From contig JAIKWN010000116.1 in the NCBI GenBank assembly GCA_024684665.1, positions 1 to 34,620 of the forward strand: 34,620 nt of DNA. Reading direction: 5' to 3'. Position 1 is the stretch's first letter; the number at the start of each line of letters is the position of its first letter. This stretch comes from Clostridiales bacterium. Its GTDB lineage: Bacteria; Bacillota_A; Clostridia; Christensenellales; Aristaeellaceae. Both the position numbers and the translations under genes were made by a program. The notes beneath the pieces were generated by a model, which saw nothing but the letters and a program-made list of their open reading frames with translations, was not told where the DNA came from and ran no database searches. Below are positions 12,336 through 17,553 of this stretch, in pieces.

Positions 12336-12362
12336 GACCGGATGACGAAAGTAGGATTCGCT

Positions 12363-13691
12363 ATGAAAAGAATTCTTGTCCTTCTAACGATCGCCTGCCT
12401 ATTCGCTTCCGCAGCAGCTGCGTCGGACGCAAAGCTGGTCAATGAAGGCAGACGCGGAGGCGAAGACGCTGCGACAGATTTTCTGGAAATCCGTTCTCCC
12501 CTGGATGGAGCGGTTCTGCAGGGAAGCGCAGACGACACCGTCACCCTCGCTTGGCGCTTTCTGAAGGGACCCGTGCGGTCCGGAACTGTCAAATACGAGG
12601 TGAAAGACGCCGAAACTGGAAGAGTTTATCTTTCCGACAGCAACAACATGCGGGAATACTACTGGAAAGAATGGGGATATTACGACGAGTTTGATTTTTC
12701 CCGTAAGGTCAGCCTATCGAAACTTGGCGGTCCGGGCCAGAGGCTGGTTCTTTCCGTACGCTACAGCAATCAGGAATCCTCCGTCCAGTTTACAACGCGG
12801 AGCGGGGAAGCGGGAAACGCGGTCCCTGCCGTGCAGGCCCCCGCGACCGTCCGTTCCTTAATTCGCGATGCCCGCGGCATTATGGACCGTCTGGAGTGGC
12901 GCAACTGGATCCGCGTCTGGCGGCGCGAAAAAGAAGCACGACGCATCTGGCATTATTCCGTCAATTCCGGTTCTGAGGAAACGATCCGCTATGCGAGCCT
13001 CCTCTCTTTCCAAAGCGGACGGCATGAGGCGGACGCGATAGACGACGCTGAGATTCTCCGGATCATGCATTTCTTCGAGTGCGAACACACCACCAGTGCG
13101 TCCATCCGCTTTTACCACGACCAGCTTCCCGCAAAATGGAAGGATATCGACGTGAAGTTCCAGTCCGTAGCCTCCACTGAGGGACAGCCGGATTTTGACG
13201 CCTGCGGATGGAAATTCTCGGCGGTCGTGACGGAAATGTCCTATGATAGATGGCTGAAGGACGAGGTGCTGCTTTTGGCGCAGGCGCCGTATATCCGGGA
13301 AGCCGGATTCGAGGACAGCCTCGATTATCCGGGCGAACACCGCATCGCCATCCTCATCTCGGACCAGGATACCGTGAAACGCATGACGGCGGAGCTGACC
13401 CGGGCGGGCTACCTCAGCCTGCCGGAATCCGTCCGCGCGAAACTGTTCGACGGCAAAGACTACCCCGGCGGCATCATCCGCGGCGGCGGGGTAGAAGGGC
13501 GAAAATCGGTCACCATCCACGACGACGGGGACGTCATGGTCCGCAACAAGCCCAAGAAAGGCGCACACAAGATCGGGAAAGCGAAGGCGGGCGAGTCCTA
13601 TCCTCTTTTGGAGGATACCGGAAAAGGATGGCTTCTCATCGAACTGCCGGACGGCAAAAAAGGATATATTTCCGATAAATATCTCAAATAA
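12363..13691 (+). CDS. Secreted protein with Ig-like and SH3b domains
   Basis: A 442-residue exported protein of unknown function. Residues 1-21 are a signal peptide (MKRILVLLTIACLFASAAAA). Residues about 38-145 look like a beta-sandwich (EIRSPLDGAVL, then TVTLAWRF and QRLVLSVRYSNQE), the middle 150 residues have no recognised family, and the last 60 (VTIHDDGDVMVRNKPKKG.. to the end YISDKYLK) form a bacterial SH3 domain of the kind that binds peptidoglycan. Together these point to a cell-wall-associated protein. The start at 12363 is preferred to 12342 because the signal peptide begins there and GTAGGA lies upstream. It lies 27 bases after the flavoprotein gene, likely co-transcribed, and immediately left of the DnaA-box region. 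No terminator was seen after it. Confidence 0.75.
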   Translation: MKRILVLLTIACLFASAAAASDAKLVNEGRRGGEDAATDFLEIRSPLDGAVLQGSADDTVTLAWRFLKGPVRSGTVKYEVKDAETGRVYLSDSNNMREYYWKEWGYYDEFDFSRKVSLSKLGGPGQRLVLSVRYSNQESSVQFTTRSGEAGNAVPAVQAPATVRSLIRDARGIMDRLEWRNWIRVWRREKEARRIWHYSVNSGSEETIRYASLLSFQSGRHEADAIDDAEILRIMHFFECEHTTSASIRFYHDQLPAKWKDIDVKFQSVASTEGQPDFDACGWKFSAVVTEMSYDRWLKDEVLLLAQAPYIREAGFEDSLDYPGEHRIAILISDQDTVKRMTAELTRAGYLSLPESVRAKLFDGKDYPGGIIRGGGVEGRKSVTIHDDGDVMVRNKPKKGAHKIGKAKAGESYPLLEDTGKGWLLIELPDGKKGYISDKYLK

Positions 13692-13725: not shown

Positions 13726-13755
13726 TTGTCTTTCCGTCTCTGCCTATGCTATAAT
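13726..13755 (+). promoter_or_regulatory. Promoter upstream of dnaN, within the origin region
   Basis: TTGTCT (13726-13731), an 18-base spacer and a perfect TATAAT (13750-13755). The transcript would cross the DnaA boxes as a roughly 200-base leader before dnaN, so DnaA binding could repress it. Confidence 0.6.
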
Positions 13756-13811
13756 CTTTGGAATGGGGCGGAAAAAACCGGTTCCGCCGGAGACCGTCTT
13801 TAAACGGAATC

Positions 13812-13930
13812 TGTGAAAAACTGTGGATAACCGTATCTTTTCCTGTGAAACGAATTTTTCTATTATTTTCCGCTTTTCGCTCCTTTTCCACAGTTCCAAC
13901 AGCTCTAATACTACTTCTTCTAATTTCTTA
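13812..13930 (+). other. oriC: Putative oriC unwinding region (DnaA boxes plus DnaA-trio run)
   Basis: A perfect DnaA box in reverse orientation (TGTGGATAA, 13822-13830) is preceded by a two-mismatch copy (13812-13820). A one-mismatch forward box (TTTTCCACA) lies at 13884-13892. Twelve bases after it the top strand reads CTA-ATA-CTA-CTT-CTT-CTA (13905-13922), whose complement is a run of 3'-GAT-like triplets as in the DnaA-trio element of Bacillus-type origins. The stretch 13831-13935 is AT-rich, suited to strand opening. The order box, short spacer, trios, dnaN matches the dnaA-dnaN intergenic part of bipartite origins. Boxes and trios are read directly; origin function is inferred. Confidence 0.65.
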
Positions 13931-13961
13931 TACTTCCTGAACCAATTTGAGGAGGAAACCC

Positions 13962-15065
13962 ATGATCTTTTCCTGTGAGTCGCAGCTGCTGAACAATGCC
14001 CTCTCCATCGTCAGCCACTCTCTTGCTGTGCGCTCTCCCAATCCGATTCTGGAGGGCGTCCTTCTGGAGAGCTGCGAGGAAGGGATTCACCTCACCTGTA
14101 CGGACGGAACTCTCGGCATTGAAACCACCATACCGGCGGAAGTCGCTGAAGAGGGCCGCTGCGTACTGCCCGGAAAGCTCTTCTGTGAAGCCATCCGGAA
14201 AATGCCAGGCGGAAAACTAAATTTTTCCATGACGCCGAATCTGCAGGTGACTGTTAGCTGCATGTCTTTCCGGATGACGATGACAGGTATGGACGCCATG
14301 GAGTATCCAGAACTTCCGGAAGTTGAAGGCGAGCGGTTTACGATCTCTCAGGGGCTTCTGCGCGAGATGATCGGAGGAACTCTGTTCGCCACCGCTGTGG
14401 ACGAAAGCCGCCCGATCCTGACCGGATGTCTGCTTGAGATGACGGAAGAATCCATCAGTCTCGTCGCACTAGACGGTTTCCGTCTCGCAATCCGCCGAGA
14501 ACCGATCCACGGACCGGAACATAACGTGCAGACGGTTCTTGGCGGCCGTGCGCTGACCGAGATTTCCCGCGTTCTCTCGGACGGAGACGAGGAACTGACG
14601 CTGAATGTCGGCAAGAGCCATACGGAATTCATTCTCGGAGAAACGCGGATCATCGCGCGTTCCCTGGAGGGAGAATTCATCCGTTACCGGCAGATTCTGC
14701 CAACGGAGTGGAAAACACAAACGATCGTGAACCGCCGCGACCTAGAAAGCGCCATCGACCGGGCGAGCCTCATCGCGCGGGAAGGCAAAAGCAACTTGGT
14801 CCGCTTCCGCATCGAGGGGGAAGAGCTCATCGTCACCTCCAATTCCGAAACTAGCGACACGGAGGAGTGCATCACCGGAGAGACGATGGGCAGCGGCCTG
14901 ACCATCGCGTTTAATATCCGCTATATCACCGACGTGCTCAAGGTGCTGAACGAAGACCGGGTCGTGATGCGTTTCAATTCGAACGTCAGCCCCTGCGTGA
15001 TCACGCCGGAGCAGGGAGAAAAGTATCTCTATCTCGTCCTGCCAGTGCGCGTTTTCGGCGCGTGA
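13962..15065 (+). CDS. dnaN: DNA polymerase III beta sliding clamp
   Basis: The 367-residue clamp forms a ring dimer that holds the replicative polymerase on DNA. Three repeats of the clamp fold (about 1-120, 128-245, 246-367) are recognisable: IFSCESQLLNNALSIVSHSL at the start, LPGKLFCEAIRKMPGG near 73-88, FATAVDESRPILTGCLLE at the start of the second repeat, and the C-terminal YLYLVLPVR, which is the normal clamp ending where partner peptides dock. ATG 13962 follows GAGGAGG; an ATG 15 bases upstream adds five unlikely residues. It is followed by recF after six bases, the usual bacterial order, but dnaA is not upstream and the small S4-domain gene often found between dnaN and recF is absent. 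Confidence 0.97.
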   Translation: MIFSCESQLLNNALSIVSHSLAVRSPNPILEGVLLESCEEGIHLTCTDGTLGIETTIPAEVAEEGRCVLPGKLFCEAIRKMPGGKLNFSMTPNLQVTVSCMSFRMTMTGMDAMEYPELPEVEGERFTISQGLLREMIGGTLFATAVDESRPILTGCLLEMTEESISLVALDGFRLAIRREPIHGPEHNVQTVLGGRALTEISRVLSDGDEELTLNVGKSHTEFILGETRIIARSLEGEFIRYRQILPTEWKTQTIVNRRDLESAIDRASLIAREGKSNLVRFRIEGEELIVTSNSETSDTEECITGETMGSGLTIAFNIRYITDVLKVLNEDRVVMRFNSNVSPCVITPEQGEKYLYLVLPVRVFGA

Positions 15066-15071
15066 GGAGAC

Positions 15072-16169
15072 ATGCGCGTCAAATCGCTGATCCTGCGGGA
15101 TTTCCGCAGCTATGAACGTGCGGAGATCCATCCCGCGCCAGGGATGACTGTCTTTGCCGGGAGGAACGCCCAGGGGAAGACCAATCTGCTAGAAGCCATT
15201 CACCTGTGTTGCACCGGCAGGAGTCACCGGACTTCGCGGGACGAGGAGCTGATCCGCTTCGGGTGCTCCGCGGCAAAGGCAACCGTTTTTGCAGAACAGA
15301 AGGACGGAACCCACGAGGTTTCCGTGGTGCTGCTACGGGGCCAGAAGAAGAAGAAAAACGTCCTGATCGGCATGAGGCAAGCGGAGCGCATCGGCGAGCT
15401 TTTCGGACACGTTTGTTGCGTGCTCTTTTCCCCGGAAGATCTCTCAATTGTGAAGGGCGGACCGGGCGAGCGGCGGCGCTTCCTGGATATGCAGCTTTCC
15501 CAGCTGCGTCCTCAGTATTTTTACAACCTGCAGCGCAGCGCGCATGCGCTTATGCAGCGCAACGCGCTCCTGCGCGAGATCGGGGAACGACCCGGTCTCG
15601 CCGACACGCTGGATATGTGGGACGAGCAACTGGCCAAGGCGGGGGATGCCGTTGTCCGGGGCCGCAGAGAAGTGACAGAGGCTCTGTCCCGCCTGGCGGC
15701 GGAGGAACACGCAAAGCTGACGGACGGAGCGGAGAAACTGTCTCTCCGGCTTTCCTGCGAGGCAGCGAAGGAGGAGAACCCAGGTGAAATTCTTCTCCGG
15801 CGTCTGCGTGAGACGCGTCAGGAGGATATAAGAAGGGGAACGACCACAACCGGCATTCACCGGGATGATCTTCTGATTTCCATAAACGGAAAAGATACCA
15901 GGATTTACGCCTCGCAGGGACAGCAGCGTACCGCCGTCCTTTCTCTCAAACTGGCGCAGACTAGTTTTGCGGAGCAGGAGCGGGGAGAACCCCCGGTTCT
16001 TATGTTGGACGATGTGATGAGCGAGCTGGATCCCATGCGCCGCCGCCTTCTGGCCAGGCGTATCGACCGGCTGCAGACCTTTATCACCTGCACCGATCCC
16101 ACGGATCTTTCCGGCGCGCCGGAAGGCATGCTTTACCGCGTGGAAGACGGAAAAGTGACGGAAACCTGA
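15072..16169 (+). CDS. recF: DNA replication and repair ATPase RecF
   Basis: A 365-residue SMC-like ATPase that, with RecO and RecR, loads RecA on gapped DNA at stalled forks. The N terminus has the family sequence KSLILRDFRSYERAEIHPAPG and Walker A G30-R-N-A-Q-G-K-T37; the signature segment is IYASQGQQRTAVLSLKLAQ, and Walker B with D-loop is VLMLDDVMSELDPMRR near residues 309-324. FSPEDLSIVKGGPGERRRFLD is the conserved RecF central motif. Length is normal. GAGGAG lies before the ATG, six bases after dnaN, so the two form one transcription unit that ends at the hairpin at 16182. Confidence 0.97.
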   Translation: MRVKSLILRDFRSYERAEIHPAPGMTVFAGRNAQGKTNLLEAIHLCCTGRSHRTSRDEELIRFGCSAAKATVFAEQKDGTHEVSVVLLRGQKKKKNVLIGMRQAERIGELFGHVCCVLFSPEDLSIVKGGPGERRRFLDMQLSQLRPQYFYNLQRSAHALMQRNALLREIGERPGLADTLDMWDEQLAKAGDAVVRGRREVTEALSRLAAEEHAKLTDGAEKLSLRLSCEAAKEENPGEILLRRLRETRQEDIRRGTTTTGIHRDDLLISINGKDTRIYASQGQQRTAVLSLKLAQTSFAEQERGEPPVLMLDDVMSELDPMRRRLLARRIDRLQTFITCTDPTDLSGAPEGMLYRVEDGKVTET

Positions 16170-16174
16170 ACAGG

Positions 16175-16352
16175 TTTTCCACAAGTTTCGGAAAAACTTG
16201 CAGTTTTATCCACAATTATGTGGAAAACTATGGGGATAACCGATAGTATTTCAAAAACGGATTTGAAGAAAATCGCGGAACGGTGCGGTTATAAGCGGGG
16301 ATGACTTTTCACATAAAACCGCACGCTTCCAAAAGTGGATAAATGGGGATAA
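16175..16352. other. Second DnaA-box cluster downstream of recF
   Basis: Six boxes lie in 180 non-coding bases: TTTTCCACA (16175-16183, one mismatch), TTATCCACA (16206-16214, perfect), and in reverse TGTGGAAAA (16219-16227), TGGGGATAA (16231-16239 and 16344-16352) and AGTGGATAA (16334-16342), each with one mismatch. The second and third form a dyad around AATTA-like spacer bases. Between the box groups an 8-base perfect inverted repeat, GTGCGGTT (16283-16290) and AACCGCAC (16317-16324), encloses 26 bases. This may be the second half of a bipartite origin or a DnaA-titration site. Confidence 0.6.
16182..16207 (+). terminator. Intrinsic terminator after recF
   Basis: CAAGTTT (16182-16188) and AAACTTG (16194-16200) form a seven-pair stem with a five-base loop, followed by CAGTTTT. 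It overlaps one DnaA box and touches the next. Confidence 0.5.
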
Positions 16353-16368: not shown

Positions 16369-17553
16369 ATGAACCGCAAGCGAACGAATGGATGGTATAT
16401 GGCCGGGTCTGAGGGATCAGACGGAAAAAAAGGCCGGCGGGGCGGACGGCTGCGCCGCCGCTTCTTCGCATTGCTAGTTCTTCTGATCGCGGGTTTTGCG
16501 GCTTTCTTTCTGTACAGGCAGCTTTCAGAGGACCGTGGGCGGACCGAAATAGGCCGCGTGACGCGGGTAGCCACGACGCTGAAGCAGCAGATCCGTCTGA
16601 CGAATGACCGTATCCTCTTCTATGACGGTGCGACGCTTCACTGCGTTTCTGCTACGGGAAACGCGGAATGGAGCTATCAGGTGGGCGCAAATGCGGATTA
16701 CTCGGTGAATGGAAACCGCATCGCCGCCTGGTCCGGCAACGACATCTACATTATGAATGATCGAGGCCGTCTCATCTATAACAACAGCATGGAAGACGTG
16801 ATCCAATTTGCTTCCGTCGGCGAAGAATTCGCGGCGGTGTTCACCGGTGAAATCGACAGCGGCATCGTGACGGTCATCAACTCAGACGGGCAGACTGTCG
16901 ACAAGATTTCCATAGACAACTTGACGCTGCTGAACATTGGATTTTTCAAAGCGGCGACCTCCGCCTCCGGAACGCAGAAGACGGAGATCATGTGGGTTCT
17001 CGGCATCAATACCACAGGGACGGTCATTGAGACGGAGCTTCAGACGTATCAGCCGGGACGACTTTCCATCGGGCGCACCAACTTGGGCGAGCATCTCGCC
17101 TACCGAGTCTTCGACGATGGAAATGGGAATCTCTCCGTAGTCACCACCCGGGAAATCCAGCATTACAACTACCGGGGCGTATTGCAGGGGGATTCCACGC
17201 TCATCTACGGCTACATCGCGGAGGACGTGAAGTGGGATGGATTCCGGCAGATGACGCTTCTTCTTCCGGAATCGGATATCGAACGGGGCATGCGCATCGG
17301 TAGCGTGCGCTTCCTTTCCGGAACGCTGGACCGGATGCTCCGCCTGCCGGGAGAATGCATGGATGCCAGACTGGGTTCCCGCTGCGTATACGCTTTCGGT
17401 CCCCGCGAGGTTTATGCCTGCCGCTTTGAGGATACGACCTTCACGCCCTTTGCAGTTCCAATCACCATCACCGGCGTCATCGGTATGCTTTCCGGAAACC
17501 GGGCCGTCGTCACATCGGACAACGACATCTACGTGATCGAGATGCCGATGTAG
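16369..17553 (+). CDS. DUF5711-type membrane-anchored beta-propeller protein
   Basis: A 394-residue protein with a basic cytoplasmic N terminus, one membrane segment (about 32-49) and a large outside domain. The outer part has repeated beta-strand pairs such as RILFYDGATLHCVSATGNAEW, NDIYIMNDRGRLIYNN, RAVVTSDNDIYVIEMPM, as in PQQ-like or WD-like propellers; the overall pattern is that of the DUF5711 proteins of Clostridia, whose function is unknown. AAAGGATGGAGG precedes the ATG. It is the first gene of a long + strand series and starts 17 bases after the second DnaA-box cluster, so its expression could respond to DnaA. The family name is from recollection of the architecture. Confidence 0.7.
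   Translation: MNRKRTNGWYMAGSEGSDGKKGRRGGRLRRRFFALLVLLIAGFAAFFLYRQLSEDRGRTEIGRVTRVATTLKQQIRLTNDRILFYDGATLHCVSATGNAEWSYQVGANADYSVNGNRIAAWSGNDIYIMNDRGRLIYNNSMEDVIQFASVGEEFAAVFTGEIDSGIVTVINSDGQTVDKISIDNLTLLNIGFFKAATSASGTQKTEIMWVLGINTTGTVIETELQTYQPGRLSIGRTNLGEHLAYRVFDDGNGNLSVVTTREIQHYNYRGVLQGDSTLIYGYIAEDVKWDGFRQMTLLLPESDIERGMRIGSVRFLSGTLDRMLRLPGECMDARLGSRCVYAFGPREVYACRFEDTTFTPFAVPITITGVIGMLSGNRAVVTSDNDIYVIEMPM

Follow-up and report, generated by a model that had tools for sequence, protein, structure and literature searches.

The window analysed here, a stretch of 34,620 b with 57.5% G+C, very probably holds a chromosomal origin of replication in front of its dnaN gene. In our reading, to which we give a probability of about 0.9, this is the origin of an uncultured Christensenellales-like clostridium, at which DnaA bound to tandem DnaA boxes would open the duplex at an adjoining run of DnaA-trios. 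The boxes and trios are conserved among relatives, the GC skew of related genomes switches sign at dnaN, and dnaA is absent from the dnaN-recF locus of the window. In the proposed mechanism, DnaA encoded elsewhere would bind the tandem boxes at 13884–13901, an ATP-DnaA filament would be led rightwards from there onto the minus-strand trios at 13905–13925 and stretch that strand, and the duplex would open just 5' of dnaN. The proposal follows work on B. subtilis, for which the sections of PMC6669920 and PMC8287927 used here describe boxes that lead an ATP-DnaA filament onto trios in cis, with opening of the duplex.

The unwinding element in front of dnaN

The genes and elements around the start of dnaN are as follows.

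13726–13755, plus strand: promoter-like site TTGTCT-18-TATAAT with TG ahead of the second hexamer, a possible dnaN promoter (consensus scan only)
13812–13820, minus strand: weak DnaA box TGTGAAAAA with 2 mismatches, offset by 10 bp relative to the perfect box (box scan)
13822–13830, minus strand: perfect DnaA box TGTGGATAA (box scan), its position not conserved column by column
13884–13892, plus strand: trio-proximal DnaA box TTTTCCACA, 1 mismatch, first box of the basal unwinding system (BUS); 1.41 bits per column over 36 loci
13893–13901, plus strand: degenerate tandem second DnaA box GTTCCAACA, 4 mismatches by inspection; 1.29 bits per column
13902–13904, plus strand: 3-bp gap GCT between second box and trios (from the sequence)
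13905–13925, minus strand: DnaA-trios, top strand CTA ATA CTA CTT CTT CTA ATT (rule score, conservation and stability)
13962–15065, plus strand: dnaN, sliding clamp (TIGR00663, 272 bits)
15072–16169, plus strand: recF (TIGR00611, 362.7 bits)

The other genes of the window are ordinary chromosomal ones (EPSP synthase, dihydrodipicolinate synthase, alanine racemase, MazG and 5-FTHF cyclo-ligase). The ORF at 12342–13691, just 5' of dnaN, was ruled out as dnaA and encodes an SH3-domain protein (SH3_3).

An earlier note on this DNA had described a perfect box at 13822–13830, a one-mismatch box at 13884–13892 and, 12 bases later, six triplets at 13905–13922, all directly upstream of dnaN and with the box-spacer-trio polarity of the known element, and had held the combination to be improbable by chance. 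The coordinates proved exact, with a seventh triplet in addition; the gene that follows is dnaN, and comparison with the B. subtilis BUS gives the same polarity. The note had missed the degenerate second box at 13893–13901, the box cluster after recF and the absence of dnaA from the locus.

The six-triplet run CTAATACTACTTCTTCTA at 13905–13922 is followed at once by the seventh triplet, ATT. On the minus strand the trios read 3'-GAT TAT GAT GAA GAA GAT TAA-5', and this is the strand that DnaA would hold. The least stable 30-bp duplex of 13801–13961 begins at 13905 and belongs to the top 0.11% of the window. Transcription from the promoter-like site at 13726–13755 would possibly cross the unwinding element; there are three such sites in 3 kb, against 1.1 (sd 1.2) in shuffles.

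The BUS search rule, as given in the relevant sections of PMC8287927, asks for a box with at most 2 mismatches, a spacer of 0–16 bp and at least three 3'-NAN-5' trios; a tandem second box with up to 4 mismatches is optional and is reported there for 57% of origins. We coded the rule from that account, as NTN on the box strand, and devised the trio score ourselves. The window element has TTTTCCACA with 1 mismatch as its box, a spacer of 12 bp from 13884–13892 to the first trio, seven trios, and GTTCCAACA at 13893–13901, with 4 mismatches, as the tandem second box. It scores 16 at 13884, and the next best site on either strand of the window scores 7. The improbability asserted in the earlier note was borne out, an equal score being reached neither by any of 200 order-1 Markov shuffles of the whole window nor by any of 20,000 shuffled sequences that matched the 270-b intergenic stretch in composition.

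A dnaN profile search gave 37 loci in named genome records, mostly metagenome-assembled Clostridia, Clostridiales and Oscillospiraceae. Several of these come from animal gut samples, one (L037) is a distant Kaiserbacteria match, and the relatives include a 'Christensenellales bacterium' with a dnaN 62% identical to that of the window. The upstream regions of 36 loci, the window included, were aligned; L028, L033, L034, L037, L130, L131 and 28 of the 30 loci L060–L089 were left out, and the omitted L060–L089 loci, some of which repeat L001–L036 and others of which are more distant genomes, were scanned by the strict rule only. The aligned regions are 37–53% identical to the window overall, and the box (1.41 bits per column), the second box (1.29) and the trios (1.25) are clearly above the 0.34 of the far upstream part. 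At the second-box position the relatives mostly have TTTCCACC or similar. An NTN triplet stands in register in 36/36, 11/36, 30/36, 33/36, 29/36 and 27/33 sequences for triplets 1 to 6; read in either of the other registers, each of the six has a middle T in just 1–3 sequences. The second triplet (13908–13910 in the window) is CGG in 18 of the 36 loci and CGA or CGT in six. The perfect box at 13822–13830 occupies a position with 0.31 bits per column, and most relatives carry a TGTGGAWAA box some 9–23 bp further upstream. Conservation of boxes and triplets, by which the earlier note had proposed to judge the element, is thus found for the box at 13884 and the triplet register over the 36 loci, and is lacking for the second triplet and for the position of the box at 13822–13830.

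Because the second triplet is often CGG or alike, the published rule undercounts in these relatives. Among L001–L036 the strict rule finds nothing before dnaN in 11 loci and scores of 5–7 in five, and these 16 failures of 36 are largely due to that triplet; for this reason the alignment was used together with a looser BUS-like rule and controls. The looser rule was applied to 79 loci, in 22 of which dnaA lies within 2 kb upstream of dnaN (linked) and in 57 of which it does not (unlinked); 40 of the loci were added by picking 20 of each state, and the 22:57 ratio is no census. It fits 60 of the 79 dnaN upstream regions (47/57 unlinked, 13/22 linked); in the controls it fits 39 of 3625 random stretches drawn from these loci and, on the reverse strand, 3 of the 79 regions. 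Most of the 19 regions that it misses prove on inspection to hold a run of variant triplets, for example CGA. No variant run was found in the inspected upstream stretch of L028 or of L206; for the genome of L206 a run CTACTACTA lies 267 b upstream (L081).

It is noted that a CGG second triplet contradicts the supposed conserved middle adenine of the DnaA-trio. The segment after the trios (13923–13945) is conserved as well, with 1.09 bits and mostly a TATATACT-like sequence. Many relatives have a second trio-like run after TATATA at about -35 to -18 from dnaN (consensus TATATACTgCtaCTAC), just 5' of the dnaN ribosome-binding site; this run is absent from the window at 13929–13945. In many of L003–L027, and not in the window, a near-palindrome CCAAAA...TTTTGGCTTTTTGG lies at about -120 to -78, between two boxes upstream of dnaN.

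The DnaA-box array behind recF

Six boxes lie within 178 bp behind recF, at 16175–16352, and form a denser set than the one upstream of dnaN.

16175–16214, plus strand: plus-facing boxes TTTTCCACA at 16175–16183 and TTATCCACA at 16206–16214, the latter perfect (box scan)
16219–16239, minus strand: minus-facing boxes TGTGGAAAA at 16219–16227 and TGGGGATAA at 16231–16239, at start-to-start offsets of 13 and 12 bp from the box before (box scan)
16334–16352, minus strand: minus-facing boxes AGTGGATAA and TGGGGATAA, starting 10 bp apart (16334 and 16344), before the next gene (box scan)

Three of the five successive box offsets are 10–13 bp, and the six boxes per 180 b compare with at most 2 in 200 shuffles. 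For the relatives, arrays were counted in the 36 loci that have a recF followed by 500 b or more of sequence, which excludes L015, L019 and L034, where no recF was found, and L037, whose context is unrelated. At least three boxes stand behind recF in 27 of the 36, and a facing pair at an offset of 12–13 bp is present in 22; the mean box density behind recF is 4.40 per kb against 0.189 per kb elsewhere. The commonest successive offsets are 10, 13, 12 and 11 bp, and the clearest array, in L012, has four boxes followed by four facing ones at offsets of 10–13. The first box lies 4–106 b past the recF stop in 23 of the 27 array-bearing loci (exceptions L003, L005, L014 and L028), and the start of the next conserved gene, as estimated from where the alignments begin, is some 200 to 915 b past recF. 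In the window this next gene is the ORF at 16369–17553, which has no match in Pfam or NCBIfam and which the window's clade retains after recF and the array; a CvpA-type gene comes next in relatives.

On the dnaN tree the array requires three changes. Of 46 scored rows 28 have it, and these cluster in the part of the tree that holds the window; outside that part it occurs in L026, L028 and L033. Box clusters in the flanks were counted without short-flank loci and without L208, which is the same locus as L029 and was kept in the tree and in the looser-rule counts. Distal clusters on the right occur in 33 of 48 unlinked and in 2 of 17 linked loci (L028 and L033), counts that are not independent of kinship, so that Fisher values computed from them are given no weight, linkage changing only once or twice on the tree. 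Clusters 1–2.5 kb to the left of dnaN occur in none of 50 unlinked and in 13 of 20 linked loci, a partly trivial contrast, as the left-hand cluster is dnaA's own. The simple idea that the array replaces a lost dnaA-side cluster was weakened, given that 15 of the 48 unlinked loci are without a right-hand cluster and two linked loci have one; the array is therefore not simply tied to the absence of dnaA. Other unlinked lineages often have their cluster some 5 kb further right, within or after an AddA/UvrD-like gene (named by eye). Three loci of a sister clade (L131, L203 and L211) have box clusters at +4.9 to +6.0 kb from dnaN, in or behind an AddA/UvrD-like gene of about 1150 aa that follows recF.

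We propose that the array at 16175–16352 may gather DnaA and deliver it to the unwinding site, with dnaN-recF looped out in between, much as oriC1 does in C. difficile. By that analogy, there are about even odds that the array forms the other half of a bipartite origin in which dnaN-recF serves as the spacer. Two box clusters (13812–13925 and 16175–16352) are separated by a spacer, and one of them carries the unwinding element; the spacer is dnaN-recF instead of dnaA. The review PMC4285127 calls the spacer 'usually dnaA', so that dnaA is not strictly defining. It is preferable to say that the layout would work like a bipartite oriC rather than that it is one.

A different role for the array, which leaves the core of our reading unchanged, has a substantial chance of being right, somewhat short of one half: the element upstream of dnaN would be the whole, continuous origin, and the array a separate site for DnaA titration or for timing. 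The rule finds no BUS at the array on either strand, which agrees with such a role. So do the absence of a right-hand cluster from 15 of 48 unlinked loci and the further box groups that one relative (G047) has at 191 kb and 2.97 Mb, well away from dnaN. However, a pure titration site could be anywhere, and the array has a fixed place behind recF, with its first box 4–106 b past the stop in 23 of 27 loci; the facing pair, too, is kept in 22 of 36 loci.

That the boxes are operators is improbable. DnaA would in that case regulate dnaN through the upstream boxes and the gene at 16369 through the array, and the true origin would lie elsewhere. The promoter-like site upstream of the boxes would fit, as would the distance of 16 b between the end of the last two boxes and the ORF start at 16369. 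Trios in a fixed register are, however, needless for an operator, the skew of relatives switches at dnaN (see below), and the array mostly stays by recF although the spacing between recF and the next conserved gene ranges, by estimated gene starts, between about 200 and about 915 b.

GC skew and the location of dnaA

The reading of the dnaN-upstream site as the origin is supported by the skew of relatives. In three near-complete contigs (G145, G107 and G047) the sign of the GC skew switches at dnaN, with dnaA 46 kb to 1.3 Mb away. In G145 and G107, for which 30 stretches per contig were sampled, the switch from minus to plus falls at 2.556–2.635 Mb (dnaN at 2.591 Mb, dnaA at 1.306 Mb) and at 1.606–1.690 Mb (dnaN at 1.671 Mb, dnaA at 0.458 Mb), respectively. 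The skew around dnaA is -0.081 in G145 and -0.073 in G107, which places the gene in the minus arm; each minus arm has one near-zero sample (+0.001 at 2.21 Mb in G145, +0.005 at 1.12 Mb in G107). In the nearer relative G047, with a dnaN 56% identical to that of the window, the switch is at 61–63 kb, recF and dnaN lie at 62.5–64.7 kb on the minus strand, and dnaA is at 16–17 kb, inside the minus arm. Five of the 54 exact TTWTCCACA sites of the G047 genome are at 61.9–64.8 kb. More groups of exact boxes occur on the same genome (contig C3) far from dnaN, at 191277–193632 and 2968648–2968801, and are possible titration or control sites.

In six shorter contigs of relatives, the cumulative minimum lies 0.1, 1.2, 1.3, 3.4, 4.2 and 12.5 kb from the 5' end of dnaN. 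It is thus within 4.2 kb in five of the six, the exception being G022 (12.5 kb); G014 (1.3 kb) is a weak case with dnaN 6 kb from the contig end. The cumulative-skew minimum of the window is at 11.5 kb, 2.5 kb left of dnaN, over 34.6 kb only. The skew check that the earlier note had called for, run on relatives, therefore places the switch at dnaN and not at dnaA, and together with the conservation it backs that note's suggestion of a likely chromosomal origin.

A dnaA gene above the family cut-off was found in 21 of 22 relatives' genomes. Over 429 residues the DnaA of G001, the nearest genome, can be aligned with that of B. subtilis (8btg); by hand-counted positions, it keeps the arginine-finger stretch LRSRF and has a valine at the position of isoleucine 190. 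On the dnaN tree the linkage label requires two changes, or possibly just one. The rpmH gene was found in 14 of 16 genomes. It does not share a contig with dnaA there, save in the three near-complete contigs, where 200 kb or more separate it from dnaN. L028 retains rpmH, dnaA, dnaN and recF together. The tree and the scattered rpmH suggest that an old cluster broke up and that the trios mostly stayed with dnaN. We regard it as a serious possibility, at a little under even odds, that dnaA left the origin, the unwinding element stayed with dnaN, and a new second half arose on the other side of it. In the window's clade this half would be the closely spaced facing array after recF, at about +2.2 kb; in the sister clade it would lie some 5 kb to the right, in part within the AddA-like gene.

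It is very improbable that the origin is at dnaA elsewhere in the genome and that the element at dnaN is a mere relic. At least four boxes surround dnaA in 14 of 22 dnaA or DnaA-like loci, as an origin there would have it; yet dnaA lies inside the minus arm, off the switch, in G145, G107 and G047, and the best BUS-type score at the 22 loci, with boxes of at most 1 mismatch, is 9 against 16 in the window. Eleven dnaA loci (L046–L052 and L054–L057) have 5–10 boxes, most of them in the 450 b or so ahead of the relocated gene, without strong trios; the boxes perhaps serve autoregulation. Least credible is a chance pyrimidine-rich dnaN leader, since the top strand is indeed C/T-rich here but none of the 20,000 local shuffles equals the score, and five of the six triplets have a middle T in 27–36 of 33–36 sequences against 1–3 in other registers.

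Comparison with known origins

The unwinding element is an ordinary member of the known BUS kind. With the BUS in incC of B. subtilis (DnaA-box 6/7 and trios), as presented in the sections of PMC6669920 and PMC8287927 used here, it shares tandem boxes of which the first is nearer to consensus. According to the latter account it also shares a 12-bp spacer within the peak of 10–13, at least three trios, 3'-GAT-5' next to the box, and the polarity. In contrast to B. subtilis, the second triplet is CGG in half of the aligned relatives, and the gene in front is not dnaA. The distal boxes within B. subtilis incC are thought to raise local DnaA, in the part of PMC6669920 that treats them.

For C. difficile, the sections of PMC7561715 drawn on report that both origin halves are needed in vitro for opening, which takes place at the trio-bearing half. 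That bipartite oriC is like the present locus in having the trio half directly before dnaN and a second box cluster across a spacer. It differs in that its oriC1 is upstream of dnaA, whereas the second cluster here is on the other side, behind recF, with dnaN-recF as the spacer and no dnaA at the locus.

An origin at dnaN with a distant dnaA is already known in cyanobacteria. As stated in the passages cited, Synechococcus elongatus has its oriC at dnaN and dnaA 1.1 Mb away (PMC3480399), and dnaN adjoins oriC in 55 of 68 cyanobacteria (PMC4674748). The likeness lies in the origin at dnaN and, in S. elongatus, in dnaA being elsewhere; the phylum is different, and those passages describe no array behind recF. 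We found no earlier account in the open-access papers searched of an origin at dnaN without dnaA in a Clostridia clade, or of a facing array behind recF, and no paper there on oriC of Christensenellales.

The box arrays of E. coli oriC face each other. The array behind recF is alike in its two ranks of facing boxes; the E. coli arrays, as the relevant section of PMC4285127 has it, lie inside one continuous origin and are not helically phased, whereas here the array is 2.2 kb from the unwinding site. The comparison of clades with or without dnaA, and with or without the right-hand array, amounts to a natural experiment on split origins and could separate the roles of the unwinding element, the distal boxes and dnaA itself.

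In Firmicutes the gene order rnpA-rpmH-dnaA-dnaN commonly serves to identify the origin. In the relatives tested, rpmH, dnaA and dnaN are apart and the skew follows dnaN, which indicates which piece is the origin. It also serves as a warning that calling origins by dnaA fails in these uncultured clostridia. If the second half was indeed rebuilt, the bipartite layout would be held by selection, with a second half replaceable from new sequence.
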